Assembly: GCF_020149935.1 (NCBI RefSeq)
Contig: NZ_CP083757.1
Span: forward strand, 3,311,501-3,375,500
Reading direction: 5' to 3'
DNA length: 64,000 nt
DNA from: Marinilongibacter aquaticus
Lineage (GTDB): Bacteria > Bacteroidota > Bacteroidia > Cytophagales > Spirosomataceae
Shown here: piece by piece, positions 49,901 to 64,000 of the stretch
Numbering within the stretch: the first letter of the stretch is position 1
Layout: every line of letters begins with the position of its first letter
Position numbers and translations under genes: made by a program
The notes under the pieces: generated by a model
What the model saw: the letters and a program-made list of their open reading frames with translations, nothing else
Databases searched by the model: none
Told to the model about the DNA's origin: nothing

Positions 49901-52900
49901 CTGTATGATCTGCCAACGAAGGGCTGTTGTCATTCGAAGAGATGGGCGTATTGTTGAACCCAAGTATATCGATTTCGGCTTCTTCAATAATGAAACCGTT
50001 GCCGCCATTGAAATCGTCTGGTGTTATTGGAAAGGGTGTATTGTCGTCACGGCTCCAGTTTGTGTAATCGTTGATAGCCAAAGCAAGCTCTTCCTTACTG
50101 CCTTGAAAGGGGCCATTGTATTTGTAATTATCGACTTCCTGAGTGGGTGAGGGGTTCAGCATTACTGCATTTGTTGCATTGGTAAGGCCAGGGGCGATGG
50201 TACTTGTGGACACACTAGACAGTGGAGCAACGAGTACGGAGGCACAGCTTGTCACGTCGGCGGCTTCGGTAAACCATTTGGTGCTTACATTGTCGCAACC
50301 GGTATTGTGGGCATAATTGTCGTCTGATTGAATACCCGTGAGAAAGGTTGGACTCCGTGAGCCGATAATTCCTTGATAGGCAAAGAGGTTGTCCGACAAC
50401 AGGTTGAAAGGGTGCGGGGTAATGCCATCGGCTTGGAGCAATGGGCCCACGCTTCCGCCTCCCGTAACTGTCAAAACATCCGTACTGGTTTCGATGATCG
50501 ATACAATACTTCCGGCGGCTAATCCCCCAGCTGGAGCTGTCCATGCAAAATGTGCTTCAGTTCCGGCATTCCAAGTGTTGGTCGAACCTTTGGACCAACC
50601 TTGATCAGTGAAATTGATCACCTCATTTGCAGGGATATTTGTGAGAGCCACAAAAGCAAAGCCATCGTCTGTATCGTTGTTGATGGCCACGAAAGCGATA
50701 TCTCCTGCGGCCAACGAACCGGGATTGGGAATCAGCACTTCAAAGGTGCTCAAGTTGTTACAGCCTTGTCCGTTGTTGGCCCATGTGCCTACGCCCAAGT
50801 TTGGAGGGTTCGGAGCCGAATTGTTTGTGTTGTAGTGCGTAAGCACTTCATATACGCCATCATGGTTGGCATCCAAACGCAATTCCCATCTCGAATTGGC
50901 GGTAGACCACTTTACCTGATAAGGGTTGTTTCCATTTGCTGCGGTGCCGGTAAAAATATTTCTTGATGTCGCTTGAGAATCATCTCCTGTATGCCACATG
51001 TCAATGTCAGCCGCAAAGAAACAGTTGTCGCTGTCTCCCACATTGACGCGTAAATCAGAACTGACGACAATCAATCGAGCAGGATCTGAATTTGTGTTTC
51101 CTTCCGTATTCGAGACCACGCAGCGGTATTGTTTGTCGTTCAGGCCATTTACACTGCTTATGGACAGGATATCGCTGAAAACTCCAGAGTAGATACTGGA
51201 GTTGGATAGGTCGGTCCATGAGCCATTCGAAAGCACTTGCCAGCGGTATGAACTTGCATCATTTGATTTTACCCAAAAAACAGTACTGTTGTCTTCGGCC
51301 AATGTAATGCTTTGTGGATGGTGATTGATTGTTGGAGGGGAAGCCGTGGCTGTGCCTTGAATTGAAAATGTATACGGTGCTTCGTCATAATCGTCGTTTT
51401 CAATGCTGACCACAGCTTCTTTTGCTCCAGAAGAGGAAGGATTGAAAGTGATTTGGAAGTTTGAGCTTCCCGAAGCTGACACGCCTGATGAGGGCTGTGA
51501 ACTGACACTGAAACCTACATTGTCAGGGTCGATTGTCACGCGTGGGCTCGAAGTGTTAAGGTTGAGTGTCGTGGTACCGGTATTCTGTATGGTGAATGTG
51601 TGCTGCGTAGAGCCAGAACCCACGGCTTGACTTCCAAAATCGGTCCCGTTTGAGCTCGATGGACTGTTACTGCCATTGGTTATATTGTTGCCCGATCCGG
51701 TTAGATTGATTTCTGGGCAACCCGGATTGCTTTGGTATTCGTAGGCTCCTAAGTCGAGTGTAGCACCGTAGATTCTTGCGTTCCCGTCCAAATCATACGA
51801 AGCGGCTTGGCCGTTCAGTCCTGTGTTGATTGCAGGAGAGCAGCCGTATAGGCGAAGGTCGCCGAGTGTGTTTACTTCAATTTTGGGTTGATCGAGAAAC
51901 ATCGGGTTGGTGCTGAGGTTGCCTGTGCCCGAATGGCCATTCTCCACAATTGAGTAGGTGACACTCACAGTACTCGACAGATTGTTGATTTCACTGTCGT
52001 TGCCCCAAATTATAGAGTTGACCATATTGAGGGTGCTGTTTTCTGCCGTTATGGTACCTTCTGTACCTATAGTTCTGTTTCCGGAGAAGCTGCAACTTTT
52101 AATGTTTGCCGTACCCCCGTACCGTATATTGATGGCTCCGCCCCCGAAGGTGCTCGATGTGTTTCCAATGAATTCGGTGTTTTCGATAGTGGCTTCACCT
52201 GCGTTGACAAATATTGCACCTCCAAAACCGGTATGATTACCCTTGAAGCTGCAATTTTTAATTAAATATGAACCGCCTCCAATACGCATTGCACCCGAGT
52301 TGAAATAAGATGAGTTGCTTTCGAATGTACAATCGGAATACGTGCAAAAGGTGGCTCCTTCGTGAAATATAGCCCCGCCGATCAATGAAAAGTTGTCTCG
52401 AAAGGTGCAGTTCGAAATGACGGCATTGTTCGGGGTATATTGGAAATATATCGCTCCTCCTCTGTCTTTTGGGGCGTCGCTATCTGAAGCTTGGCCGTCT
52501 ACAAATGTCAGGCCATCGAAAGTGGTGCTGCCGCTTACACCCGAAGGGACGGTCATGATGTGATAGCAGTTGTCTGCGTCGTCGCCGTTGTTCCCAATAT
52601 CGCCCGAAAGGATTGTCTCGTTTAAGGCAATATTTCTGTTGTTGATCGCCCCTTCATTACCGGCGAAGCCGCCGTAGAGTTTGATGCCCCTGTCTACTGT
52701 AAAAGTAGCATTTCTGCCCGAACCACTGGTTGGGGTATACGTGCCTGCGGCTATCCAAATTTCATCTCCCGCTACCGAGGCATCGATCATGTTTTGCAGG
52801 CTTCCCGAGGCATTTGCCCAAGACGAGCCGTTTCCCGATCCACTTGCCGTGGGCTTGACGTAGCGAATGGTGGCAAAAGAGTAAAGGTGTGCCATTAGAA

Positions 52901-52928
52901 GTGTACACAGAAGTAGAACTCTTTTCAT
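43998..52928 (-). CDS. giant secreted repeat protein (beta-helix, choice-of-anchor D, Calx-beta, cadherin-like, 80-aa repeats)
   Basis: 2976 residues. Signal peptide 1-19. A right-handed beta-helix covers about 20-400 (repeated GGAIF..., NCTF... turns). A first choice-of-anchor D (ASPM/SPD-2/Hydin-like) domain is at about 405-530, an Ig-like domain to about 630, a lamin-tail/extracellular region to about 980 and a second anchor D domain to about 1100. Residues 1100-2038 are two near-identical 469-residue units, each with cadherin-like, two Calx-beta and one anchor D domain. Five 80-residue units follow (about 2137-2537), then two Ig-like/PKD-like domains and a C-terminal 3-coathanger-type module (SGKSITLRPGFEAENGS). 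No typical T9SS tail is seen. It is presumably an adhesin or matrix protein on the cell surface. GC rises sharply in the C-terminal two thirds. Confidence 0.88.
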   Translation of the reverse strand: MKRVLLLCTLLMAHLYSFATIRYVKPTASGSGNGSSWANASGSLQNMIDASVAGDEIWIAAGTYTPTSGSGRNATFTVDRGIKLYGGFAGNEGAINNRNIALNETILSGDIGNNGDDADNCYHIMTVPSGVSGSTTFDGLTFVDGQASDSDAPKDRGGAIYFQYTPNNAVISNCTFRDNFSLIGGAIFHEGATFCTYSDCTFESNSSYFNSGAMRIGGGSYLIKNCSFKGNHTGFGGAIFVNAGEATIENTEFIGNTSSTFGGGAINIRYGGTANIKSCSFSGNRTIGTEGTITAENSTLNMVNSIIWGNDSEINNLSSTVSVTYSIVENGHSGTGNLSTNPMFLDQPKIEVNTLGDLRLYGCSPAINTGLNGQAASYDLDGNARIYGATLDLGAYEYQSNPGCPEINLTGSGNNITNGSNSPSSSNGTDFGSQAVGSGSTQHTFTIQNTGTTTLNLNTSSPRVTIDPDNVGFSVSSQPSSGVSASGSSNFQITFNPSSSGAKEAVVSIENDDYDEAPYTFSIQGTATASPPTINHHPQSITLAEDNSTVFWVKSNDASSYRWQVLSNGSWTDLSNSSIYSGVFSDILSISSVNGLNDKQYRCVVSNTEGNTNSDPARLIVVSSDLRVNVGDSDNCFFAADIDMWHTGDDSQATSRNIFTGTAANGNNPYQVKWSTANSRWELRLDANHDGVYEVLTHYNTNNSAPNPPNLGVGTWANNGQGCNNLSTFEVLIPNPGSLAAGDIAFVAINNDTDDGFAFVALTNIPANEVINFTDQGWSKGSTNTWNAGTEAHFAWTAPAGGLAAGSIVSIIETSTDVLTVTGGGSVGPLLQADGITPHPFNLLSDNLFAYQGIIGSRSPTFLTGIQSDDNYAHNTGCDNVSTKWFTEAADVTSCASVLVAPLSSVSTSTIAPGLTNATNAVMLNPSPTQEVDNYKYNGPFQGSKEELALAINDYTNWSRDDNTPFPITPDDFNGGNGFIIEEAEIDILGFNNTPISSNDNSPSLADHTDFGSTDVSSGSVIRTFTIQNSGTASLILGANPVTKSGTNAADFSISQPSLSSVPAAGSTTFQVTFNPSTVGIKTATLQISSNDADENPYTFAIKGEGIMANELPTASSFSATIYEGVSYVFATADFGYADLDSDPLDHLLIESVPAEGVLYLDANGNNLLDTGEELGDNDQISKADLDSGRLKYYQNGSTNSSFQFEVNDGTDYSSGNYTTSLNLTAKPSVELSIDQNMLSEADAGPATVTATLSHSFGANVQISLGFTGSPMNTFDYDRSGTTIDIAPGSLTGSITLSNKQDNLYEGNEQLTVSITSVQNGTKGTDDHVTYTIGDDDPKPIANLLLRTMYNPITNESGGQAYIVGEIDAPAGVTVSIPLTFAGTAVGGGTDYAITGSTISIPYGQTSDSIRVTSLYDNLEEGDETIIITMGTPTNASTGSVQQVTLTIIDAVPEIGLKGNGMDIANGDTAPSSAKHTDFGSQNVSSGTVTRTFSIENTGTASLALSGNPKVEIGGTNAADFTVGSQPDSPLPPSGNTTFQITFDPSAAGLRTAEVSIANNDADENPYTFAIKGEGIMANELPTASSFSATIYEGISYVFATADFSYADPDSDPLDHLLIESVPAEGVLYLDANGNNLLDTGEELGDNDQISKADLDSGRLKYYQNGSTNSSFQFEVNDGTDYSSGNYTTSLNLTAKPSVELSIDQNMLSEADAGPATVTATLSHSFGANVQISLGFTGSPMNTFDYDRSGTTIDIAPGSLTGSITLSNKQDNLYEGNEQLTVSITSVQNGTKGTDDHVTYTIGDDDPKPIANLLLRTMYNPITNESGGQAYIVGEIDAPAGVTVSIPLTFAGTAVGGGTDYAITGSTISIPYGQTSDSIRVTSLYDNLEEGDETIIITMGTPTNASTGSVQQVTLTIIDAVPEIGLKGNGMDIANGDTAPSSAKHTDFGSQNVSSGTVTRTFSIENTGTASLALSGNPKVEIGGTNAADFTVGSQPDSPLPPSGNTTFQITFDPSAAGLRTAEVSIANNDADENPYTFAIQGTGVIPCTPPTVPTVTHSPATVCNGGTATLNITGTLNDASHWAIYTGSCGGTLIGTTATSSFEVTPSSPSTTYYIRGEGGCTAPSSCGTVTVNVTALDDAGFEYPAQAYCTGGQDPTPSVTGLAGGTFSASPAGLEIDPATGTVDLSLSTPGTYTVAYATAGTCGSSSNAPLTVNAPDDAGFEYPAQAYCTGGQDPTPSVTGLAGGTFSASPAGLEIDPATGTVDLSLSTPGTYTVAYATAGTCGSSSNAPLTVNAPDDAGFEYPAQAYCTGGQDPTPSVTGLAGGTFSASPAGLEIDPATGTVDLSLSTPGTYTVTYATAGTCGSSSNVPLTVNAPDDAGFQYPAQAYCTGGQDPTPSVTGLAGGTFSASPAGLEIDPATGTVDLSLSTPGTYTVTYATAGTCGSSSNAPLTINAPDDAGFQYPAQAYCTGDQDPTPSVTGLAGGTFSASPAGLEIDPATGTVDLSLSTPGTYTVTYATAGTCGSSSNVPLTVNDLPSVSISGEENISCLVSSVIRTASGGSVYSWSGGLGNTATVSISTPGVYTVKATDANGCSSTASTEVTSTESEIIAAASNSGPFEEGHLIQLMASGGSSYNWTGPNGFASTLQNPTIANATVAMSGTYTVTVSEGACSATASTQVSVACSNPGMDYYLAYTEPGLELIAPVANNLQVQRSDRKMTVVAITTCAYPVIESVKLQLSGTTDLQYHEDSNMPFYLHEVDDVPDGDVLHSNLYTFIARGYSEDNVQGEVLVGPDVFQFWIVDGQRTVDVPTASATALCGAASFTVSTAADGDFHAGNAYQVYLSDEQGSFANSILIGTSTDPANIPCQLPNYLKSGDGYRIKVSSTSPVVSSDASAQILSIVATDLLLESPQDDLNGGSIANHKAINTIRATHRIGEGARSDLLSGKSITLRPGFEAENGSTFRATIQNACEN
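45319..46517 (-). repeat. five tandem 240-bp (80-aa) repeats in the giant surface protein
   Basis: Five in-frame units of 240 bp, more than 90% alike by eye, each reading from DDAGFEYPAQAYCTGG through TPSVTGLAGGTFSASPAG to SSNAPLTVNAP. Two conserved cysteines per unit suggest one disulfide per Ig-like domain. Such arrays can expand or shrink by recombination. Confidence 0.95.
46814..48220 (-). repeat. 1407-bp tandem unit, copy nearer the C-terminus
   Basis: Matches 48221-49627 base for base over most of its length, with a handful of substitutions near its high-coordinate end. 1407 bp is 469 codons, so the frame is kept. Confidence 0.95.
48221..49627 (-). repeat. 1407-bp tandem unit, copy nearer the N-terminus
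   Basis: Partner of 46814-48220. Beyond 49627 similarity falls to that of an ordinary anchor D paralog and the base composition changes. Confidence 0.95.
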
Positions 52929-53604: not shown

Positions 53605-56355
53605 TTAGGCGTTTTGGTATTCCGAAGGCAGTTGCCCGAATTCTGTTTGGAAAGTTTTGGAAAAATAGGAGAGGTTTTCAAAGCCCACTTCAAAAGCCAC
53701 TTCCGAAACCGATTTGTCGGTATGTTTAAAAAGGCTTTCGGCTTTCTGTAGCCTGAATTTCCTGAGGTATTCGTTTGGTGTATGTTTGGTCAGGTACTTG
53801 AGTTTTCTTCGCAATTGTGTGTCGCTTATGTGCATATGATTCGCCATATCGCTGACAGTCAGCGTAGAGTTCCCGTGGTTTTCTTCGAGGTAAGTTCTCA
53901 GTTTTTGAATGAAGTCCTTTTCACTTTTTTGCTCGGGGGCCGTCTGGTCTACCGTACCTTTTTCAAACGCTTTTCTGCTGCGTTCGCGGTTTTCCAGGCA
54001 CATAGAAAGTACAACTTTAAGCTCTTCCGCATCAAAAGGTTTGGTGAGGTATTGGTCAATGCCAGTTTTCAAGTTTTCCAACCGCGATTCTTTGTCAGAC
54101 CGTGCAGTAAGCATCACAATCGGAATATGGCTCGTGGCCTCGTTGGCTCTGATTCTACGGGCCAGTTCGGTGCCGTGCATTTCGGGCATCATCAAATCGG
54201 TGATGATAATATCGGGTACTTGAAGGTTTGCTTTTTCCAGCCCTTCCAGTCCGTTGGCGGCTTCGGTCAGATCGTATGTCGATTTAAGCAATTCGCTGAT
54301 GTAAAGACGCATCTCCGTATTGTCTTCAATGAGCAAAATTTTGGCTTTGTCGTCATCGGCTTCTGTATTTGTATTTCGAGCGGATTGCGGGAGTACAGCT
54401 TGCTCGGTTTCGCTTTCCTGCGATACGACATAGCTTTTCCAGCTTTCAAAATCTACAGGTATTTCAACGACAAAACACGTGCCTTTTTTCAATTGGCTGT
54501 CGATCTCAATGTGTCCTTTGTGCTGCAAAACCAGCTCTTTTACAAGTGAGAGGCCAATGCCCGTGCCTTCCACAATTTCGCCCGAGCTGTCGGCCACCCG
54601 ATAGAAGCGATCGAAGACATAGGGCAAATGTGCTTTTCCAATGCCTTTTCCGTTGTCTTTTACCGTGAAGTGCAGCACGGTGTTTTTAAGTTTGGCCTGT
54701 GTAGATACGGTAACTTCACCGCCCGAAGGGGTGAATTTCAATGCATTGGAAATCAGGTTGTTCAGTATTTTTTCCAAACTTTCCTGATCGAAATAGCAGT
54801 CGAATTCGGTTTCTTTCGATTCGAAGAAAAGTGCAATGTTTTTGGATTGGGCATGGCTTTCGAACGAATCGACAATGCGTTTGGCGAAAATATTGAAATC
54901 GGAATGGATGATTTTTGGTCTGGCTTTACCGGCTTCCAGTTTTTGGATATCCAAAATTTCATTCACCAATTTCTGCAATTTCGAGACATTGCTTTTCAGT
55001 AATTTGACGAACTGGTCGCTTGGGTATTTTTTGGTGATCTCGGCGAGTGGGCCCGCGATCAATGTGAGCGGTGTGCGTAGTTCGTGCGAAATGGTGGTGA
55101 AGAATTTCGTTTTTAAATTGTCCAACTCCTTCAGTCGTTCTTTTTGCCGAGTTTCGAATTTCAATTGCTGTTCGGCTTCGATCTTTTCGCGTTCGAAACT
55201 CCTGAATATTTTTCCGATAAAGAATATGAAAACGAAGAATTCTGAGAGGAAAAAGAAGGAAGCCATGGCAAAGATTCCCGGAAAATGCAGCCAGCCGAGC
55301 AGGCGTGCATTCATGATGAAATAGCTGAGGTTGCCCAACAAAAAGGGCAGGGAATAAAAGAAATAGGTGTTTACTCTTTTGACAAAACAATAGATGTACA
55401 ATATATAAATGACCAGCGAACTGTAAACGATAAAGTAGATCGTGAATTTCATGTTCGCCGCACTGAAATCGTACAAAGTGTACGAAACTTGGAGCAGATT
55501 GCTCAACATTATGCCGTACATTGCCCAGCGGAAAATTCTGGGAATTTGTTTCATGGGCAGTATGGTGAGAATGAAAATGCTGCTGTAGAAAGGAGCTAAG
55601 CTGTAGCCCACGTAATTTATTTTTTCAACGGTTTCGGATACTTCCGAAAAGAATGGGCCAAAAATATTGAGCAAAGACCAATAGGCGATTGTTCGGCCAA
55701 TGATCACCACCGAATAGGCTTTTATTTTGTGTTCTCTGATTAGGAAAAGTGTGATGCTGAAGACCAAAATCAACCGCAAGATCATCATGCCGCTAACCAT
55801 GGCTCTGAAACTCAAATCCCGCATTTGAAACGCATGGAATTTCGAGGCCTCATAAATATGCAAGGAGCCGACATGGCTTCTTCGGCTTTTGATTTTAAGA
55901 AAGAAATGGTTGAGGCTATCCTTTGGCAATTGAAAACTGAAATGGGGTTCATGCCCTTGGAAAGCCGCCTCTTTCTGTTCGGCATAGGGCTCGAGCGAAT
56001 GGGTGGCAAGCGTATTGCCTGCCGCATCTACTCGGAAAATCGAAATTTCTTCAAGCAATGAGTTGTCCCAGAAAAAGACCCACTCGTTCCGGTCGGTTTC
56101 ATTCTTTACATCGAATTTCAGCCAAAGTGCGTCATTACTAAACGGCAGTATATATACGCCTCTTTTCCCCATAGGTCGAAAGGGCAGGTCGATGAGTGCT
56201 TTTGGTGTACTGGCTTGGCTACTGTCCTCAAAAAGAAGGCAATGGGAAGTGATGTTTCGGTGAGTGCTTCCCTCATTCAGCACAATGGGCTGAGCCATGC
56301 TTGCGGTGCATGTCAAAAAAAGTATAAAAGCTACAAAAGAATAGGATTTAGGCAA
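53605..56355 (-). CDS. hybrid sensor kinase / response regulator / AraC-type regulator (7TMR-DISM)
   Basis: 916 residues from a TTG start (an in-frame stop lies four codons further up). Signal peptide 1-21, 7TMR-DISM extracellular domain about 25-170, seven transmembrane helices about 185-385, a short coiled coil, HisKA with His424 in ISHELRTP, HATPase to about 635, a receiver domain with phospho-acceptor Asp720 in IITDLMMP, and an AraC DNA-binding domain at about 825-916 (SVSEVAFEVGFENLSYFSKTF). It senses a ligand outside and controls transcription directly. The 7TMR-DISM sensor replaces the periplasmic propeller of typical Bacteroides hybrid regulators. Target genes may be the minus-strand neighbours. 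Confidence 0.93.
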   Translation of the reverse strand: MPKSYSFVAFILFLTCTASMAQPIVLNEGSTHRNITSHCLLFEDSSQASTPKALIDLPFRPMGKRGVYILPFSNDALWLKFDVKNETDRNEWVFFWDNSLLEEISIFRVDAAGNTLATHSLEPYAEQKEAAFQGHEPHFSFQLPKDSLNHFFLKIKSRRSHVGSLHIYEASKFHAFQMRDLSFRAMVSGMMILRLILVFSITLFLIREHKIKAYSVVIIGRTIAYWSLLNIFGPFFSEVSETVEKINYVGYSLAPFYSSIFILTILPMKQIPRIFRWAMYGIMLSNLLQVSYTLYDFSAANMKFTIYFIVYSSLVIYILYIYCFVKRVNTYFFYSLPFLLGNLSYFIMNARLLGWLHFPGIFAMASFFFLSEFFVFIFFIGKIFRSFEREKIEAEQQLKFETRQKERLKELDNLKTKFFTTISHELRTPLTLIAGPLAEITKKYPSDQFVKLLKSNVSKLQKLVNEILDIQKLEAGKARPKIIHSDFNIFAKRIVDSFESHAQSKNIALFFESKETEFDCYFDQESLEKILNNLISNALKFTPSGGEVTVSTQAKLKNTVLHFTVKDNGKGIGKAHLPYVFDRFYRVADSSGEIVEGTGIGLSLVKELVLQHKGHIEIDSQLKKGTCFVVEIPVDFESWKSYVVSQESETEQAVLPQSARNTNTEADDDKAKILLIEDNTEMRLYISELLKSTYDLTEAANGLEGLEKANLQVPDIIITDLMMPEMHGTELARRIRANEATSHIPIVMLTARSDKESRLENLKTGIDQYLTKPFDAEELKVVLSMCLENRERSRKAFEKGTVDQTAPEQKSEKDFIQKLRTYLEENHGNSTLTVSDMANHMHISDTQLRRKLKYLTKHTPNEYLRKFRLQKAESLFKHTDKSVSEVAFEVGFENLSYFSKTFQTEFGQLPSEYQNA

Positions 56356-56683
56356 TGTTTTATAGCATTAATAGGGTGCAAAGTAGGAAGATTTTCTTTT
56401 TCAGAAAACTCCTTTAACAAATCTGTTCAGTAGGGTATCCGTCTTTAACAGTTACAAAATTACGACTAATGTAATCAAGGCAAATGTTTTTAATGATCAA
56501 TTTATTTCCATGGCAAAGACATTCGGGTTTGATACGCTTTGGAGTAGTATACGTAAGCGAGCTGAAAACGGTTGAGTGGAAAGAACATTTTCATGCATAC
56601 CTGTGGCCAATTTGGCATCGTATCTATTTCTGGAGTATTTAAGTCGTTGATATTGAGTTTCTTACAATTTAATGTGTAAAAAA

Positions 56684-56716
56684 TACGCTTAGTAAAGTGT
56701 AATTTGTACGCTAAGT
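56684..56716 (+). promoter_or_regulatory. candidate operator: two direct TACGCTWAGT boxes
   Basis: TACGCTTAGT (56684-56693) and TACGCTAAGT (56707-56716) repeat with a 23-nt period, about two helical turns, immediately upstream of the -7 motif at 56720. A natural place for autoregulation by the Nudix-like regulator; unproven. Confidence 0.4.
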
Positions 56717-56762: not shown

Positions 56763-57479
56763 GTGGAAAGTTCATTAAAGGGTGTTTCGGTAGACTGCGT
56801 GATTTTCGGCTTTAGCGGCGAAGAACTGAAGGTCTTTTTGCTCAAGCCCAAGTATACCTCTTCGTGGTGTTTGCCACGTGGGCCAGTATATGAAAACGAG
56901 TTGCTTCATGCCGCTGCCGCTCGGGTGCTTAGAGAAACCACAGGTATGGACAATGTCTTCTTGCAGCAGTTTCAGGCCTACGGGGCGATTGGCCGCTATA
57001 AGTATTATTCGAAAAGGAGGACGAGAGAGCTTTTGGACAATTCGAGCGAATCAATGACGGGGCTTTCTTATGAAAGCGTCATTTCGGTTGGTTATTATGC
57101 CTTGGTGGATTTTGAACGGACGGGAAGTGAAATCCTCGAAGGTTCGCAATGGAGCGAGATATCTTGTATGCCCGATCTGCTTTTTGATCACAACGACATG
57201 ATCGATATGGCTCTGGTCACTTTAAGAAAAGACCTGCGTTACCTGCCAATTGCCAAGCTTTTGCCTGAGAAGTTTACGCTTCGAGAGATGCAGCAATTGT
57301 ACGAAACGATATTGGCCCGAAAGTTTGACAGGCGGAATTTCCACAAGCTTTTGATGGGCTATGACTTTTTGATCAAACTTCCCGAAAAGCGAATGGGTGT
57401 GGCCAATAAGCCGCCCAATTTGTACAAGATCGATTTTGATAAATATGAAGCGGCTTTGCAAGATGGTATTTCCTATTGA
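56763..57479 (+). CDS. Nudix-like transcriptional regulator (NrtR/AraR type) with winged helix
   Basis: 238 residues from GTG 56763. The N-terminal 140 residues are a Nudix fold, but the Nudix box (residues 40-62, beginning GPVYENE) has R54-V55-L56-R57-E58-T59 where active enzymes have RExxEE, so two of the metal-binding glutamates are missing. The C-terminal part (about 150-225, LREMQQLYETILARKFDRRNF) is the winged-helix domain of NrtR-type regulators. In Bacteroides a member of this group, AraR, controls arabinose use. It is the first gene of the operon, 21 nt before the ThuA-GH9 gene. Most likely it is a ligand-sensing repressor of the following genes. Confidence 0.85.
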   Translation: MESSLKGVSVDCVIFGFSGEELKVFLLKPKYTSSWCLPRGPVYENELLHAAAARVLRETTGMDNVFLQQFQAYGAIGRYKYYSKRRTRELLDNSSESMTGLSYESVISVGYYALVDFERTGSEILEGSQWSEISCMPDLLFDHNDMIDMALVTLRKDLRYLPIAKLLPEKFTLREMQQLYETILARKFDRRNFHKLLMGYDFLIKLPEKRMGVANKPPNLYKIDFDKYEAALQDGISY

Positions 57480-57500
57480 TTTATTCAATCCGATATAAAA

Positions 57501-60014
57501 ATGAAAACAAGGTACGGCAGCCTTTGGGCTACATTGATTTTTTTTGGGGCATGTTGCTTTGCTTTTGGGCAGCAAATGCCCAAGCCCAAGGTCTTTGTGA
57601 TTGGAGCGACAGACCAATACCATTCGCCTATGGTTTTGAAGGCCGAGGGTCTGTTTGCCCAGTTGGCGAAGGAGAATGGCTTTGAATTGCACTTTACCCA
57701 AAATCCTGAAGAATTGAGTTTGGCCAATTTGGCCCAATACGATGTACTTGTGCAATTGCACAAAGCTCCATTCGATTTAAATGCGGCCCAACAATTTGCT
57801 GTGCAACAGTTTATAGAAAAGGGAAAGGGTTGGATTGGCGTACATGCCGCAGGACTTACTGGGCGGCAGTTCAGTGGCAAAGGCGAAACCTATTGGCAGT
57901 GGTATCAAGATTTGCTTGGCGATGTGGTCTATTCGCCGCATCCTGCCTTGCAAGAGGGCGAAGTGGAGGTAATCAATAAAGAGCACGTTCTGATGAAAGA
58001 TTTGCCCTCTCGTTTTTCGATGCGAGACGAATGGTACGAATTTCTCGGGCCGGCGGTGCCTAAAGAAGATGCCTTGGCAAAGGCAGACGAAAGTACATAC
58101 ACACAAAATAAGCCAATGGGTTTTCATCCCGTGGTTTGGGTGAATCCAAATTACAATAGGGCGGTATACATCAGTATCGGGCACGATACCAGTGCCGTGC
58201 ACAATCCGAACTATGTGCAGCTGATGAAAAACGCTTTGCTTTGGGCGGCTGATCAGAAGGGCAAAGAAGAAAAGCAAATGGAGGCCTTTTTGGATGGAGG
58301 GCCAACGGTTTTGGTCAATCAGGTTGGATACAATCGGCTATTGAATAAAAGGGCTATGCTGAAAAGCAAAGAGCCTATTGGCGAGCAGACCACTTTCGAA
58401 TTGCTGGATGCTCGTACACTCGAGACCGTGTACCGCGGAAATGTGGGAAAATCGGAGCAGATGAAGGCTTGGGACGGCCATTGGTATAGCCCCATTGATT
58501 TCAGTGGGTTTCAGGGTGCAGGGTATTTTAAATTGGTGGTACGGGAGCACAACAGTTCTTATGTGTCTTTTGATTTCCAAATTGGCGATCAGTTGCTTTC
58601 ATCGCATTTGATTCCTGCAATTGCACGTTTTTTCAATGGTCAAAAGGCGAATTCGAAAGAAGAGTTGGCGGGCGATGCCCGGGTGAAGCTTTTCGGCAGT
58701 GAAAAAACGGTGGATTTACGCGGAGGTTGGTGCGATGCCTCGGGCGATGTCAGCAAGTATTTTTCGCATTTGGCCTATACCAATTACATGAATCCACAGC
58801 AAACGCCCCTTGTCGATTGGTCGATGATCGACGCGGTGGAATCCGTGCCCGAATTGCTGAGCAAAGCCAATGCGAAGGACTCGCTCGTGCAGGAGGCATT
58901 TTATGGGGCAGATTACATCATGAAATCGCTTTCGCCGGAAGGCTATTTCTACATGACTTTGTTCTCTTATTTCAAGAAAGACCCCAGCGAAAGAAGGGTT
59001 GTGGGCTTATTGGCCGACAGCAAGACGACTTCCGATTACCAGAGTGGCTATCGCGAAGGAGGCGGAATGGGCGTGGCGGCTCTTGCCCGCATTTCGCAAT
59101 GGAAGGCCAAGAGTGAATATTCGCCAGAAGAATATTTGTCTGCTGCCGAACGTGCTTTTGAGCATTTGCAGAAACACAGCATTGAATACATCGACGACCA
59201 CAAAGAGAACATTCTGGACGATTATTCGGCCTTGATGGCCAGCACCGAATTGTGGATTGCAACGGGCAAAGAAAAATATAAAGTGGAAGCTCGTAAAAGA
59301 GCAAATCGATTGACTGGAAGGATTTCGAACGAAGGCTTTTTCTGGAGCGATGACGAAAAAACGAGGCCTTTTTGGCATGCATCCGATGCCGGATTACCCT
59401 TGCTTTCACTTATTCGCTATTTGGATGTGGAGCAAGATTCTGGCCAAAGACAGAAGGCCTTAAAGACTATCAAGAAGTGGATAGATTATCAATTGCGTGT
59501 TTCCACGGAAGTGCCCAATCCTTTTGCTTATCCGAGGCAAACTTTCCGTTTCGAGCATAAAATTCAAAATGGATTTTTTATTCCCCACGAAAACGAGAGT
59601 GGATGGTGGTGGCAAGGGGAGAATGCCCGCATAGGGTCTTTGATCACGGTTTTGCTAAAAGGTGGACGTTTGGTTTATCCTGCTGAAGGGCCTTTGGGCC
59701 TACGCCAAGATATTGCCGAACGGGCGAGCACAATGGTCGATTGGATTTTGGGCTGCAATCCTTATCAAGTGTGCATGCTATACGGTTATGGGCAGGTAAA
59801 TGTGCCCTATATGGCCGCCATGTATGGGCACGGTTCCGGTATTGGGGGAATTTCGAATGGCATTACCGGGCACAAGGATAGTCCAGACGGCAGCGGGATC
59901 GATTTCAAGTACGAAGACAACGGAAACGAATGGAGATGGAGTGAGCAGTGGATTCCGCATACGGCATGGTTCTTACAGGCTTTGGTGGCATTGGAAACAA
60001 ATTCAGAAAAATGA
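57501..60014 (+). CDS. exported ThuA - GH9 fusion protein
   Basis: 837 residues with signal peptide (1-23). Residues about 28-255 are a ThuA-like domain (FVIGATDQYHSPMV, GKGWIGVHAAG). Then the N-terminal Ig-like domain of GH9 (about 268-360, VLVNQVGYN) and a GH9 catalytic domain (about 365-835). The GH9 base region reads GGWCDASGDVSKY at 408-420, with Asp412 and Asp416; the canonical form is DAGD, so one residue is inserted. Glu810 or Glu815 near the C-terminus is the likely catalytic acid. GH9 enzymes cut beta-1,4-glucans or glucosamine oligomers; ThuA domains are linked to sugar-derivative use. The protein acts in the periplasm or outside. Its stop overlaps the next start (ATGA). Confidence 0.85.
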   Translation: MKTRYGSLWATLIFFGACCFAFGQQMPKPKVFVIGATDQYHSPMVLKAEGLFAQLAKENGFELHFTQNPEELSLANLAQYDVLVQLHKAPFDLNAAQQFAVQQFIEKGKGWIGVHAAGLTGRQFSGKGETYWQWYQDLLGDVVYSPHPALQEGEVEVINKEHVLMKDLPSRFSMRDEWYEFLGPAVPKEDALAKADESTYTQNKPMGFHPVVWVNPNYNRAVYISIGHDTSAVHNPNYVQLMKNALLWAADQKGKEEKQMEAFLDGGPTVLVNQVGYNRLLNKRAMLKSKEPIGEQTTFELLDARTLETVYRGNVGKSEQMKAWDGHWYSPIDFSGFQGAGYFKLVVREHNSSYVSFDFQIGDQLLSSHLIPAIARFFNGQKANSKEELAGDARVKLFGSEKTVDLRGGWCDASGDVSKYFSHLAYTNYMNPQQTPLVDWSMIDAVESVPELLSKANAKDSLVQEAFYGADYIMKSLSPEGYFYMTLFSYFKKDPSERRVVGLLADSKTTSDYQSGYREGGGMGVAALARISQWKAKSEYSPEEYLSAAERAFEHLQKHSIEYIDDHKENILDDYSALMASTELWIATGKEKYKVEARKRANRLTGRISNEGFFWSDDEKTRPFWHASDAGLPLLSLIRYLDVEQDSGQRQKALKTIKKWIDYQLRVSTEVPNPFAYPRQTFRFEHKIQNGFFIPHENESGWWWQGENARIGSLITVLLKGGRLVYPAEGPLGLRQDIAERASTMVDWILGCNPYQVCMLYGYGQVNVPYMAAMYGHGSGIGGISNGITGHKDSPDGSGIDFKYEDNGNEWRWSEQWIPHTAWFLQALVALETNSEK

Positions 60015-60772
60015 GAATGGCAATAAAATTTGGACTTGCGTGTCTTTTTGCTTTGTGCCTCGGCACTTCGGCAATGGCTCAGCCACGCTTTAAGGCATTG
60101 GTATTGACCGAGCGGGGCGGTTTGCACGAAAGTTTTGCCGCGGCTTCTTTGGAATGGTTGGAATCGTTTAGCCAAAAGGAAAATTTCGAATTCACGGTAA
60201 TCAACAAGGCCGATACGATCACCAAGGATTTTTTGTCGCAATATGCCCTTTTCATTCAATTGGACTTTCCGCCTTACACTTGGCCGGATTATGCCAAAGA
60301 AGCCTTTGAAGAGTATATAGACGAAGGCAAAGGAGCTTGGATCGGCTTTCACCATGCTTCGCTCTTGGGCGAATTCGACGGTTACTCTATGTGGAATTGG
60401 TTTTCCGACTTTATGGGTGGAATCCGGTGGAAAGATTACATCGCCGAACGCGTGGATGGAGAAGTGGTTCTCGAAAAGCCCAAACATCCAATCTTTAAAG
60501 GTGTGCCGCGAAAATTTGTCCTACCCCGAGAAGAATGGTATACCTACGACCACAGTCCGCGAGGAGCCAAGGTGGAAGTGCTGGCCGTGGTAGACGAAAA
60601 TAGTTATAAGCCGGCTTCAGCAGTAAAAATGGGCGATCATCCGGTCATCTGGATTAACAAAGAGAAGAAGGCCAAGAATGTGTATTTCCAATTTGGCCAT
60701 CACGGTGGTTTGTATAAAGTAGAAGGATTTCAAACTCTTTTAGAAAATACTGTCCGTTGGGCAGTGGATTGA
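60011..60772 (+). CDS. exported ThuA-domain protein
   Basis: 253 residues from ATG 60011, which overlaps the previous stop. Signal peptide 1-24 (cleaved after AMA). One ThuA-like domain fills the rest (ALVLTERGGLHESFAAASLEW, EGKGAWIGFHHASLLGEF, HPIFKGVPRKF). It resembles the N-terminal domain of the upstream fusion protein but is not a close copy. ThuA proteins take part in disaccharide use in rhizobia; the exact chemistry is not settled. It sits between the GH9 fusion and the PTS genes, so likely processes the same sugar before uptake. Confidence 0.85.
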   Translation: MRMAIKFGLACLFALCLGTSAMAQPRFKALVLTERGGLHESFAAASLEWLESFSQKENFEFTVINKADTITKDFLSQYALFIQLDFPPYTWPDYAKEAFEEYIDEGKGAWIGFHHASLLGEFDGYSMWNWFSDFMGGIRWKDYIAERVDGEVVLEKPKHPIFKGVPRKFVLPREEWYTYDHSPRGAKVEVLAVVDENSYKPASAVKMGDHPVIWINKEKKAKNVYFQFGHHGGLYKVEGFQTLLENTVRWAVD

Positions 60773-60776
60773 GCTT

Positions 60777-61190
60777 ATGCGAAAATTTTTGATAGCCACT
60801 CACGGGCAATTGGCCTCGGGGCTGAAATCGGCACTTGATCTCATTATTGGCGAGCAAGAGGGTGTATTCACATTGAATGCCTATGCCAACGGGAACGAAT
60901 CGATCGGGAAAGCACTCGACGAGCTTCTGCTGAATGTACAAGAGGGGGAAGAACTTCTGGTTTTCACCGACATAATGGCCGGAAGCATTACCAATCAGGT
61001 AATACAGCGAACCGCTCATTTGCCCCATGTTCATACCGTTTCGGGTGTGAATTTGGCCTTACTTATTGAGCTGGTACTCAGCGACCAAGCTGAGCCGATA
61101 GTGGATACCATTGAACGGGCCGTAGAGCAGGCAAAAAAGCAAGTGGTGTACGTAGATAAGATGATAAATAAAGAAGAAGACAATGATTAA
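60777..61190 (+). CDS. PTS EIIA, mannose family
   Basis: 137-residue cytoplasmic EIIA of the mannose/fructose/sorbose family, phosphorylated by HPr on His9 (IATHGQLASGLK). The conserved TDIMAGSITNQV and GVNLALLIEL blocks are present. It starts 4 nt after the ThuA stop and overlaps EIIB by 8 nt, so it is translated from the same message. Confidence 0.92.
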   Translation: MRKFLIATHGQLASGLKSALDLIIGEQEGVFTLNAYANGNESIGKALDELLLNVQEGEELLVFTDIMAGSITNQVIQRTAHLPHVHTVSGVNLALLIELVLSDQAEPIVDTIERAVEQAKKQVVYVDKMINKEEDND

Positions 61191-61662
61191 ATTAACCCGA
61201 ATTGACGACCGGTTGGTGCATGGCCAAGTGGCCTTTACTTGGGTGCCTGCCTTGGGCATCGATTGTTTGTTGGTGGCCAATGACAGCATCGCCAAAGACG
61301 ATTTCCAAAAAATGACCTTGGGGCTGGCCAAACCCGCAAACGCCAAATTGGTGATTCGTGGAATAGACGAGGCCATACAGTTTTTAAATGATGGCAGAAA
61401 CGATGAATTCAAGACCCTTATTTTGGTCAATTCGGTAAACGATGCTTACGCCTTGGCCTTGGCCGTGGACGAAATAAAGTCGATCAATTTCGGCGGGATT
61501 CGCACGAGAGATGGAGCCCGGTTGATCTCGAAAGCGGTAGCCATCGACGGAAACGACGAGTTGATGATCAAGGATTTGGCTAGCCGTGGTGTGGAAATGG
61601 AGGTGCGACAGGTGCCCACCGACAAAAAACAGTTGATTCAGGGTTTGATGGAATCGAAATAG
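61183..61662 (+). CDS. PTS EIIB, mannose/fructose/sorbose family
   Basis: 159-residue cytoplasmic EIIB. The phosphorylated histidine is His13 in RIDDRLVHGQV, the family signature. FGGIRTRDGARLISKAV and a C-terminal VEMEVRQVPTDKK complete the fold. It passes phosphate from EIIA to the sugar bound by EIIC/D. Confidence 0.95.
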   Translation: MIKLTRIDDRLVHGQVAFTWVPALGIDCLLVANDSIAKDDFQKMTLGLAKPANAKLVIRGIDEAIQFLNDGRNDEFKTLILVNSVNDAYALALAVDEIKSINFGGIRTRDGARLISKAVAIDGNDELMIKDLASRGVEMEVRQVPTDKKQLIQGLMESK

Positions 61663-61671
61663 AAAAATAAA

Positions 61672-63231
61672 GTGATTGCAACGTACATACTGATTACGCT
61701 GGTTGCAGTGTTTGGGCACTCAGAAGATTTTTTGGGTACTTCCTTGCTCAGTCGGCCGCTGGTATTGGGGCCCTTGGTGGGCCTCATACTCGGCGACCCC
61801 GTGCAGGGGATTGTAATTGGAGCAACCCTCGAGCTCATTTTTATGGGCAATATAAAAGTGGGGGCGGCCATTCCGCCAGATGTAATTACGGGAGGCGTCT
61901 TGGGCACAGCCTTTGCTTTGCTATCGGGCAAAGGGGCGTCTGTGGCTTTGGGCTTGGCCGTTCCGATTTCCATTTTGGCCGAGATGATTTTGAGCGGTCT
62001 TTTTATTTTCCGATCGGGTTTCAATGCTCGCTTTGCTCATTTTGCAGAAGAAGGCGATTTTCGAAAATTCGAGCGTCTTCATGTCTTTTCGGGATTGCTA
62101 AAGCCGCTGCTGATGGGCCTTTTGGTGTTTTTGGCTTTGCAGTTGGGTGCCGAAACCATGAAAACATTCCTCGATAAAATTCCCGCATGGGTGAATCAAG
62201 GGCTGCAGGTCGGTGGCAATCTTCTTCCTGCTTTGGGTTTTGCTCTTTTGATGAATGTGATGTTCAACAACAAAGTGGCTCCATATTTCTTTTTGGGTTT
62301 TATTTTGAGCAGTTATTTGCAAATGCCGATGATTGCCATCGGAGGCTTGGGTATTGTTTTGGCCCTGATCTTGGGCGATTTCAAAGGGCAGGGTGGAGTG
62401 AAAAACGATTCCAATGAAATAGAAGAAAAGCCGCTGTTGTCGAAAAAGGATATTCGGGCAGTTTTTCTGAGGTCCTTTGCTCTTGAGGCCAATTTCAATT
62501 TCGAAACCTGCCAGAATACCGGATTTGCCTTTTCCTTGATTCCAGTTTTGCGTAAAATTTACAAAAAGCCCGAGCAAATGGCTTTGGCCTTGAAACGCCA
62601 TCTCCAGTTTTTCAATACCAGTCCTTACGGTTCAACGCTCATTTTGGGAATTGCCGCAGCCATGGAAGAAAGCAATGCCAAGTCTCAAGATTTCAATGCC
62701 GATTCGATCAACACGGTAAAATCGGGTTTAATGGGCCCTCTGGCGGGAGTTTTCGATTCGCTTTTTTGGGGTACTCTGAAAGTGATCGCCGCAGGTATTG
62801 GTGTTTCTTTGGCTCTTGAAGGCAGTTTTGTTGGGCCTGTTTTGTTTGTGCTCATATACAATGTGCCCAATATTTTTCTGAGGTATAAATTGGCCACGAT
62901 AGGATACGATCAGGGCAGTCGATTTTTGCAGCGTTTGTCCGGAAGTGCGTTGATGGACAGCCTCACGCATGGAGCCTCGATTGTGGGTCTGATGGTGGTG
63001 GGGGCTATGCCGCCATTGCTGATGTCGGTGTCTGTGCCTCTGGAAATCGGTTCGAATGGCACAGAGGTGGCTTTGCAAAGTGTGTTGGATCAGATCGCTC
63101 CGGGATTGATCCCACTACTCTTGACTTTTCTCGTGTATTATTTGCTCAAAAAGAATGTGAAAGTGGCGTATCTGCTGCTCGGTCTTTTGACTCTCGGTTT
63201 TGTTGGAAGTATGCTTAATGTGTTGGCCTAA
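61672..63231 (+). CDS. fused PTS EIIC-EIID, mannose family
   Basis: 519 residues from GTG 61672. Residues 1 to about 240 are EIIC (SRPLVLGPLVGLILGDPVQG, GAAIPPDVITGGVLGTAFAL, several membrane helices). After a polar linker of about 25 residues (KNDSNEIEEKPLLSKKD) follows EIID (about 255-519: ANFNFETCQNTGFAFSLIP, HLQFFNTSPYGSTLILGI). EIIC and EIID are normally separate proteins. Together they form the inner-membrane channel that phosphorylates the sugar during entry. Substrate unknown. The stop overlaps the Enzyme I start (TAATG). Confidence 0.93.
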   Translation: MIATYILITLVAVFGHSEDFLGTSLLSRPLVLGPLVGLILGDPVQGIVIGATLELIFMGNIKVGAAIPPDVITGGVLGTAFALLSGKGASVALGLAVPISILAEMILSGLFIFRSGFNARFAHFAEEGDFRKFERLHVFSGLLKPLLMGLLVFLALQLGAETMKTFLDKIPAWVNQGLQVGGNLLPALGFALLMNVMFNNKVAPYFFLGFILSSYLQMPMIAIGGLGIVLALILGDFKGQGGVKNDSNEIEEKPLLSKKDIRAVFLRSFALEANFNFETCQNTGFAFSLIPVLRKIYKKPEQMALALKRHLQFFNTSPYGSTLILGIAAAMEESNAKSQDFNADSINTVKSGLMGPLAGVFDSLFWGTLKVIAAGIGVSLALEGSFVGPVLFVLIYNVPNIFLRYKLATIGYDQGSRFLQRLSGSALMDSLTHGASIVGLMVVGAMPPLLMSVSVPLEIGSNGTEVALQSVLDQIAPGLIPLLLTFLVYYLLKKNVKVAYLLLGLLTLGFVGSMLNVLA

Positions 63232-64000
63232 TGGAAGAAGAGAATAAAATGGAGGTACTGAAAATTCAAGGGGTGCCGGCTTCTTTGGGCATCGGTATCG
63301 GGAAAGCTGTTTGGCTTAGAAGGGAGAATTTTGTGCAAAGCGAACAGTTTTTGGCTTCGGAAACAGAAAGACGTTTCGAGGTGGATAAGTTTCGCAATTC
63401 ACTGAAAGAAGCGTTGAAAGAGCTCGAGGGCGAATTGGAGCATCCCAAACGAAAATTGAACGAGGAGGAGCGGGCCATTTTGGATACGCAAATCGAATTT
63501 TTATTGGATCCTCAATTGGAAGAAGAGGTGCTCACGGAGATTGAAAAACAAGGCAAAACCGCTATGGATGCGGTGATTGAATGTGTGCAGAAATACGTGA
63601 ATGTATTTCGTCAGATGGACGATGCGTATATGAACGAACGTGCGTCCGATATTCAAGACGTGGGCAGCCGAATATTGAATCATGTAGCCTCGCAGAAAAG
63701 AGATGTATTGCATTTGGATGCTGAAGCGATCGTTCTCGCCGATGAGATATATCCTTCGGATGCTTTGGCGATGGATTTGCAAAATGTCAAAGGCTTTGCT
63801 ACGCAAGTGGGCGGTTTGACTTCCCATACGGCCATTTTGGCCAAATCGAAAGGTATTCCTGCTGTTTTGGGTTGTTCGCACGAATTGATGCAGGTAAAAG
63901 AAGGTCAATGCCTGATTTTGGATGGAGAACAGGGTTTAATCTATGTAAACCCGAATGAAGAGCTGCTTCGTGTGTTCCGGGCAAAGTTGGAGGAGGCCGA
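63231..64000 (+). CDS. ptsI: PTS Enzyme I, N-terminal part (runs off the window)
   Basis: 256 residues visible from ATG 63231; the 3' end is outside. Enzyme I transfers phosphate from PEP to HPr. It starts with VLKIQGVPASLGIGIGKA, has the helical HPr-binding insert (about 40-140) and the phosphorylated His199 in GGLTSHTAILAKSKGIPAVLG (two adjoining blocks). No HPr or EIIA domain is fused at the N-terminus. The one-base overlap with EIIC-D puts it in the same operon. HPr, if dedicated, must lie downstream or elsewhere. Confidence 0.95.
   Translation, partial: MEEENKMEVLKIQGVPASLGIGIGKAVWLRRENFVQSEQFLASETERRFEVDKFRNSLKEALKELEGELEHPKRKLNEEERAILDTQIEFLLDPQLEEEVLTEIEKQGKTAMDAVIECVQKYVNVFRQMDDAYMNERASDIQDVGSRILNHVASQKRDVLHLDAEAIVLADEIYPSDALAMDLQNVKGFATQVGGLTSHTAILAKSKGIPAVLGCSHELMQVKEGQCLILDGEQGLIYVNPNEELLRVFRAKLEEA

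Follow-up and report, generated by a model that had tools for sequence, protein, structure and literature searches.

Organization of the operon

The window analyzed here is a 64,000-nucleotide (nt) stretch of Marinilongibacter aquaticus (positions 3311501 to 3375500 of a single-contig genome of 4.64 Mb), and its right-hand end holds most of an operon in which glycoside hydrolase family 9 (GH9) and ThuA proteins are joined to a sugar phosphotransferase system (PTS). Ten genes form a unit on one strand: seven lie in the window, and genes for HPr, a NagB-like enzyme, and a second GH9 (GH9b) follow past its edge. The machinery is of a known kind, a mannose-type PTS with a glycosidase and a relative of NagB, in a phylum (Bacteroidota) where it was unexpected, and two of its enzyme families are changed at substrate-facing positions. 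On balance, the operon probably scavenges an amino sugar, most likely glucosamine (GlcN) or an N-substituted sugar close to it, from beta-linked oligosaccharides of the chitin/chitosan type. The features are listed below; L002 is the window's own locus, numbered past the window edge.

56670..56715, plus strand: two tandem 23-nt semi-palindromic repeats, candidate operators (repeat search)
56763..57479, plus strand: NrtR/AraR-type transcription factor with a degenerate Nudix domain and a winged helix (Pfam NrtR_WHD, 6e-20; AraR_C, 1e-9; NUDIX, 1.5e-5)
57501..60014, plus strand: ThuA-GH9 fusion (ThuA, CelD_N, and GH9) with an N terminus that is signal peptide-like by eye (Pfam, PDB matches, residues)
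60011..60772, plus strand: lone ThuA protein with an N terminus that is signal peptide-like by eye (Pfam ThuA, 7e-41; the ATG at 60011 was chosen as the start)
60777..61190, plus strand: PTS EIIA (IIA), mannose family, EIIA-man (Pfam, 2e-16; His9 kept)
61183..61662, plus strand: PTS EIIB (IIB), mannose/sorbose family, PTSIIB_sorb (Pfam, 1e-44; His13 kept)
61672..63231, plus strand: fused PTS EIIC-EIID (IICD), mannose family, EII-Sor and EIID (Pfam, 1e-71 and 3e-96)
63231..64000 within the window, plus strand: Enzyme I (EI), running past the window edge and complete at 579 amino acids (aa) (Pfam; TIGR01417, 582 bits against a cut-off of 342)
L002:10468-10734, plus strand: HPr (family search of flanking genes)
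L002:10750-11487, past the edge, plus strand: NagB-like gene, glucosamine-6-phosphate (GlcN-6-P) deaminase family (family search)
L002:11514-13907, past the edge, plus strand: GH9b, the second GH9 (family search)

The seven window genes are intact and collinear. An initial annotation had described them as running in one direction with gaps of at most 21 nt, and both statements agree with the coordinates: the largest gap in the window is 21 nt, and intergenic distances across all ten genes range from −8 to +26 nt. Pfam agrees with the family given for each of the seven. The four overlaps counted in that annotation need a small correction, as with the likely starts only three fall in the window (ThuA-GH9/ThuA, 4 nt; IIA/IIB, 8 nt; IICD/EI, 1 nt), the fourth (EI/HPr) lying just outside it. 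For the ThuA-GH9 and ThuA proteins, the label "exported" refers to N termini judged by eye.

Two of the three GH9 genes of the genome are in the operon, and 3 of its 11 ThuA matches (10 of them above the cut-off) are at the operon locus; a small minus-strand open reading frame (ORF) separates GH9b from an extra ThuA gene ∼0.9 kb downstream. A family search found no oxidoreductase, kinase, aldolase, or arabinose-gene family among the ten operon genes, and the SusC/SusD pair of a Sus-type polysaccharide utilization locus is absent from them. A scan for consensus promoters and terminators gave no excess over shuffled sequences.

Conservation and spread

A contig collection was scanned with IICD, a scan that detects close relatives only, and 65 loci were recovered; with L002, these make up the 66 loci counted below. 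Residue counts and neighbor clusters use 68 loci (the 66 plus L012 and L016), and L013 to L015, L017, and L018 were left out as repeats of named loci. Gene presence was scored by tblastn (>35 bits), because a simple ORF caller missed some short genes.

IICD is present in all 66 loci by construction, the loci having been fetched with it. The core of IIA, IIB, IICD, EI, HPr, and NagB-like genes is complete in 57 of the 66, and the arrangement is therefore not a matter of chance. Seven of the nine incomplete loci (L025, L027, L033, L057, L075, L077, and L082) reach a contig end near the missing genes, which leaves L063 and L083 unexplained. At L063 (10001-12321), the core is represented by IICD and the NagB-like gene alone, next to a GH9 gene and a thioredoxin-family gene, and IIA, IIB, EI, and HPr are missing nearby. 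In L083 (10001-10450), as read by eye, the IICD frame stops after ∼130 codons and the last codons of the NagB-like gene follow directly, the break being either an internal deletion or an assembly join. The gene order, which the initial annotation had proposed to seek in other genomes, is thus present beyond this strain and with PTS genes that are not degraded. The linkage of GH9 and ThuA to the PTS that it pointed out likewise recurs in other lineages: among the 45 loci longer than 21 kb, 37 have a gene like that of the fused GH9 (GH9a) within reach, 28 have a ThuA gene, and six have neither. At L019 (6504-8229), the GH9 reading frame matches as two pieces in different frames and is broken or misassembled.

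A tree of 35 of the 65 IICD sequences grouped the window IICD with Flagellimonas/Allomuricauda (support, 99/97), apart from Dyadobacter of its own family; its exact position is less sure because its terminal branch is long (0.58). The five-locus clade of L002 and L019 to L022 has the common order NrtR-ThuA-GH9-ThuA-PTS. Since the window IICD falls in the Flagellimonas/Allomuricauda group, the operon most likely moved between orders, by horizontal spread between lineages of the phylum. One record titled Beijerinckiaceae (Pseudomonadota; L074) carries the PTS-NagB core and a GH9 gene and has a long IICD branch; it is either a misbinned contig or a case of transfer out of the phylum. Searches by title or abstract, in literature with few subscription papers, found no published description of the operon.

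A complete PTS where transport PTSs are rare

The mannose-family PTS is complete, with IIA, IIB, IIC, and IID, EI, and HPr all present; HPr, which the initial annotation had suggested might be found downstream of EI, directly follows it. In the covered copies, the phosphorylated histidine is kept in IIA (66/66), IIB (66/66), EI (63/64, with one gap), and HPr (60/60), and the stop codons flagged in six high-scoring segment pairs of this survey are all at the ends of those pairs. The highest NCBIfam scores of IIA and IIC are with AgaF and AgaW, both below the cut-off, and those of IIB and IID are with general mannose/fructose/sorbose models. The E. coli ManXYZ/AgaFBCD mannose-family PTS (TC 4.A.6) shares the IIA, IIB, IIC, and IID families and the kept phosphohistidines. 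The present system differs from it in that IIC and IID are fused, EI and HPr are encoded in the operon itself, the scores fall below the cut-offs of all man/aga/sor models matched, and the phylum is one where a transport PTS is rare.

The rarity of EII proteins was gauged from IID (PF03613) and PTS_EIIC (glucose/fructose superfamily). Of 395 genomes of the phylum, one has IID above the cut-off, namely, that of the window, and one further match is below it; within the family, IID is above the cut-off in 8 of 222 genomes (own included), and a search of two further genomes from the genus gave no IID match. PTS_EIIC is above the cut-off in 1 of the 395 genomes, with four more matches below. The statement in the initial annotation that complete sugar PTSs are uncommon in Bacteroidota is borne out by these counts. 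The EI N-domain, in contrast, is above the cut-off in 278 of the 395 genomes, so EI is widespread and a transport PTS rare, and a blanket claim that PTS proteins are rare in the phylum was rejected. Among the EI N-domain matches listed, all genomes but the window's own fall outside its class. In six other EI regions (L129 to L134), EI was called in five and HPr adjoins it in two, amid housekeeping genes; none of the six has a match to the window EII proteins, and they have the appearance of a PTS chain without an evident transporter. According to a 2008 survey, Bacteroidetes have no PTS (PMC2405797), which no longer holds given the complete operon PTS described here. Control of HPr through Ser46 by HPr kinase was considered and rejected, as no PF07475 match was found in the genome, although each of the 60 covered HPr copies has Ser46.

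Neighboring genes in other copies

Neighbor clusters were named from the Pfam matches of one member each, with SusC and GH20 assigned by eye, and their counts are not of independent events, many loci being from Mucilaginibacter. A GH18 family is present in 13 of 68 loci, including those of Flagellimonas, Hufsiella, Ferruginibacter, and Mucilaginibacter, and for the single member that was tested, the match to chitinases is at 8e-121. A NagX-like family (DUF5009 above and HGSNAT_cat just below the cut-off) is present in 8 of 68 loci, and GH20-like genes are present in 2. NagX is proposed to acetylate periplasmic GlcN and is tied to periplasmic GlcN use (PMC9007349). Together, the GH18, NagX-like, and GH20-like neighbors appear to favor chitin-type amino sugars.

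Other neighbors include a thioredoxin/AhpC family (30/68 loci), SusC-like genes (at least 8/68), a SusD family (at least 6/68), and a GH5 family (Pfam Cellulase) beside L023 and L083. In 11 of the 68 loci, a member of a copper amine oxidase family lies close to the operon; in two Dyadobacter-group genomes its gene lies between EI and HPr (L012:6003-7997 and L016:5854-7881), and at L027 (13300-13919) the stretch from EI to the contig end reads by eye as the start of a copper amine oxidase and not as HPr.

GH9 glycosidases with an altered C2 pocket

GH9a matches three PDB structures, those of Vibrio parahaemolyticus (3h7l), P. profundum (5dgq), and V. cholerae (6gdt), at E values of 3e-126 to 2e-114, and no cellulase was matched in the PDB at E values up to 1e-3. 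The Mucilaginibacter type of GH9a is ∼36% identical to the fused GH9 and matches the same three structures at 1e-121 to 1e-135, other GH9 structures matching it at 4e-10 or weaker. Over the whole domain, GH9a thus resembles VC0615, PBPRA0520, and VP2484 (6gdt, 5dgq, and 3h7l, respectively; E, 1e-114 to 1e-135), and its sequence places it in the exo-glucosaminidase clade. A cellulase assignment was rejected, the PDB matches being to the exo-glucosaminidase/exo-glucosidase clade only, and the initial description of the exported GH9 as a glucanase does not stand for the fused protein. One point in favor of that description comes from GH9b, which is equally weakly like endoglucanases (best PDB match, 3x17; 2e-10) and the exo clade (9e-10 for 3h7l and 8e-9).

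The VC0615 study describes an exo-enzyme that acts far better on (GlcN)2 than on cellobiose, has some beta-glucosidase activity, and is inactive on (GlcNAc)2; Asp140 is the postulated catalytic base, Glu546 the acid, and Asp144 a helper, and Tyr148, Trp220, and Tyr232 lie near the 2-amino group but are not seen there as the cause of the GlcN preference (PMC6096475). Among 52 GH9a copies, the catalytic residues are kept wherever covered: 51 copies have Asp140 and Asp144, the remaining one being gapped there, and 48 have Glu546, with gaps in the other four. Trp220 and Tyr232, in contrast, are replaced in all 52, by Phe and Leu in 21 and by Gly and Ala, Pro, or Thr in 31, and Tyr148 is His in the 31 copies of one type. 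GH9a does not share the −1 subsite residues that surround the 2-amino group in a GH9 exo-beta-D-glucosaminidase (Tyr148, Trp220, and Tyr/Phe232). The window protein also differs from the three Vibrio-type enzymes in its N terminus, signal peptide-like by eye, and in its fusion to ThuA. From these residue changes, the pocket at C2 is altered, in two different ways, so GlcN specificity is not transferable from VC0615 to GH9a. The trend would suit a bigger substituent at C2, for example, N-acetyl.

These results bear on the model of the initial annotation, in which beta-glucan or cellobiose is broken down and glucose or an oxidized glycoside is taken up through the PTS. The beta-glucosidase activity of VC0615, the GH5 family beside two loci, the weak likeness of GH9b to endoglucanases, and the membership of ThuA in a "trehalose utilization" Pfam family are in keeping with this model. 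It nevertheless appears improbable, given that GH9a falls in the exo clade with no cellulase match in the PDB, that the PTS core is closed by a NagB-like enzyme for which glucose-6-phosphate would have no need, and that the family search found no oxidoreductase among the ten genes.

ThuA proteins

An AlphaFold model of the lone ThuA protein, built from an alignment of 25 ThuA sequences (predicted local distance difference test [pLDDT] score, 89), is closest to a putative ThuA-like protein (4jqs/4pxy). The literature searched for ThuA biochemistry offered fold comparisons only, and no support was found in it for an enzymatic role on 3-keto sugars. In Agd3, polysaccharide binding was tested for the N-terminal domain, which in structure most resembles GATase1- and ThuA-like proteins (PMC7229062), and a levan surface glycan-binding protein uses a ThuA-like fold as its carbohydrate-binding part (PMC7618045). 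Since ThuA-like folds bind carbohydrate in these proteins, a binding role for ThuA beside GH9 is plausible and, by analogy, a fair guess.

A NagB-like enzyme in a clade of its own

The NagB-like gene is present in 59 of 66 loci and is the slowest changing of the operon genes; in 57 loci, it is 74 to 84% identical to that of the window (median, 79%, versus 65% for IICD and 45% for EI). The nearest other NagB in the 395 genomes of the phylum is at most 36% identical (matches at E values up to 1e-30), and a plasmid search gave no member of the clade among the matches listed (52 records, all at <60% identity, the best listed at 37%). By sequence comparison, the enzyme is thus placed in a clade of its own, with the consensus VDELTNL. 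Beside the catalytic His, Gln replaces Glu (NQP for NEP) in all 60 covered copies, a further one being gapped; of 19 other NagB loci of the phylum that were fetched, the ten in which the motif was caught all read NEP and LDEY. From an alignment to 2bkv, we take this Gln to correspond to Glu148 of E. coli NagB, the partner of the catalytic His. The R state of the E. coli enzyme is a point of comparison for this Glu-to-Gln change (PMC4008608). A report on Giardia NagB names Glu148 among the activator-site residues, not all of which are kept in that enzyme (PMC4281351), so Glu148 may not be universal.

The AlphaFold model of the NagB-like enzyme, built from an alignment of the window copy, 25 further operon copies, and one outsider, has a pLDDT score of 93 and the NagB fold (template modeling [TM] score with 2bkv, 0.91). 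In a comparison with the PDB, ranks 1 to 21 are GlcN-6-P deaminases and ranks 22 to 26 are chains of 6nbg, titled hypothetical in one listing and deaminase in another; after the deaminases, 6-phosphogluconolactonases are next closest. The likeness to NagB (2bkv, 1dea, and 2ri1) thus lies in the fold (TM score, ∼0.9) and in the kept positions of the active-site Asp and His, with the roles that we presume for them. The differences are the separate clade, NQP for NEP, DELTNL for a DEYVGL-type motif, and scores that reach the cut-off of none of the GlcN-6-P deaminase models matched (NF001684, 188 bits against 326; nagB equivalog TIGR00502, 132 against 236.9). There are three more PF01182 matches in the genome (a 641-aa ORF, a 237-aa ORF, and one beside a glucose-6-phosphate dehydrogenase-like ORF that by eye is probably 6-phosphogluconolactonase), so that it would be too simple to regard the NagB-like enzyme as the sole NagB of the genome.

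A PTS for galactosamine or N-acetylgalactosamine, like that of the aga genes, would account for the AgaF and AgaW scores of IIA and IIC and for the score of the NagB-like enzyme with the galactosamine-6-phosphate isomerase model (146 bits, cut-off 271), which exceeds that with the nagB equivalog. The GlcN-6-P deaminase subfamily model scores higher still (188 bits), however, the family search brought up neither a kinase nor an aldolase among the ten operon genes, and the GH9 clade acts on gluco-configured substrates (PMC6096475), all of which makes this alternative very improbable.

The operon might instead serve a different 2-substituted or modified sugar, with GH9s of widened C2 pocket and a NagB-like isomerase or deaminase that does not act on GlcN-6-P. 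The replacement of Trp220 and Tyr232 in every GH9a copy and the distance, slow change, and invariant Gln of the NagB-like clade would all suit such a pathway. The chitinase, NagX-like, and GH20-like neighbors point instead to ordinary amino sugars, and the GH9 catalytic Asp and Glu residues and the NagB fold are kept; we regard this explanation as unlikely, though less so than the two alternatives above.

Regulator and candidate operators

The tandem repeats end 47 nt before the GTG start of the Nudix-type regulator gene. This gene is present in 5 of 66 loci, and a similar repeat pair, spaced 23 to 36 nt from start to start, precedes it in all five; a strict operator pattern finds both sites in three of these loci and one site in two. 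In the whole genome, exact matches to the pattern are these two sites only. A broader regulon was rejected, as matches with two mismatches (2) do not exceed those of a reversed control (8). The Nudix box of the window regulator is degenerate, two of the core Glu residues being replaced. The winged helix, the degenerate box, and the tandem sites are those of an AraR-type Nudix repressor: BtAraR operons have two tandem semi-palindromic sites, and in AraR proteins the Nudix box is degenerate (PMC4666351). The likeness to AraR (BT0354, the Bacteroides arabinose regulator) extends to the Nudix-like domain joined to a winged helix and to the position of the sites before the operon; it is one of site layout. 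Within this genome, the exact sites occur only before this operon. The term "Nudix-regulated" in the initial annotation is therefore plausible here but does not extend to the operon at large, and some other control must operate at the loci without it. Of 68 loci, 22 have a Y_Y_Y/Reg_prop regulator family.

Proposed pathway

Several lines of evidence underlie the amino-sugar proposal: the PTS is complete, with its phosphohistidines kept wherever covered; GH9a falls in the exo-glucosaminidase clade, whose member VC0615 prefers (GlcN)2; the NagB-like gene accompanies the PTS in most loci and its modeled fold is closest to GlcN-6-P deaminases; and other copies have chitinase, NagX-like, and GH20-like neighbors. 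In the proposed pathway, the exported GH9 exo-glycosidases would release a monosaccharide in the periplasm, and the ThuA domains may bind the chain and so help them. The mannose-type IICD would carry the monosaccharide over the inner membrane, and EI, HPr, IIA, and IIB, whose phosphorylation sites are observed, would phosphorylate it from phosphoenolpyruvate. The NagB-like enzyme would turn the sugar 6-phosphate into a fructose-6-phosphate-type product, with release of ammonia if the sugar is GlcN. In the window genome and four other loci, a Nudix-type repressor may act on the two tandem operators and be released by the sugar or its phosphate, as the operators resemble those of BtAraR. GlcN-type amino sugars are the most likely candidates for the sugar.

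Several observations weigh against this proposal. On the side of the glycosidases, Trp220 and Tyr232 are replaced throughout GH9a and Tyr148 in one type, VC0615 does not act on (GlcNAc)2, the best PDB match of GH9b is an endoglucanase, no GH9a-like gene is within reach in 8 of the 45 long loci, and the window's own operon has no chitinase. On the side of the NagB-like enzyme, there are the invariant Gln, the scores below every deaminase cut-off, the higher score with the galactosamine-6-phosphate isomerase model than with the nagB equivalog, and the presence in the same genome of the 641-aa ORF with a NagB domain.

The elements that appear new in these sequences are the NagB-like clade with its invariant Glu-to-Gln change and GH9s without two residues near the C2 amine of the sugar. 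It is possible, and we propose it only tentatively, that the NagB-like protein is a new NagB-family enzyme, that the two GH9 types have a new specificity, and that the ThuA proteins are periplasmic binding or processing partners, all acting together on an amino or 2-N-substituted sugar without a described PTS route. As a conserved unit that has apparently passed from one lineage of the phylum to another, the operon gives these Bacteroidota a complete sugar PTS, EI and HPr included. Amino-sugar use by such bacteria besides the NagX route can be tested on it directly, and its tightly conserved NagB-like protein is a clean, uncharacterized enzyme family.

Surroundings of the operon in the window

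Divergent from the operon and ∼400 bp upstream of it is a gene for a hybrid histidine kinase (53605-56355, minus strand) with a 7TMR-DISM extracellular domain, a response regulator, and an AraC-type output. Farther upstream (43998-52928, minus strand) is a predicted protein of 2976 aa with a signal peptide-like start and long, near-identical internal repeats, which from the ORF list is adhesin- or surface protein-like by eye.

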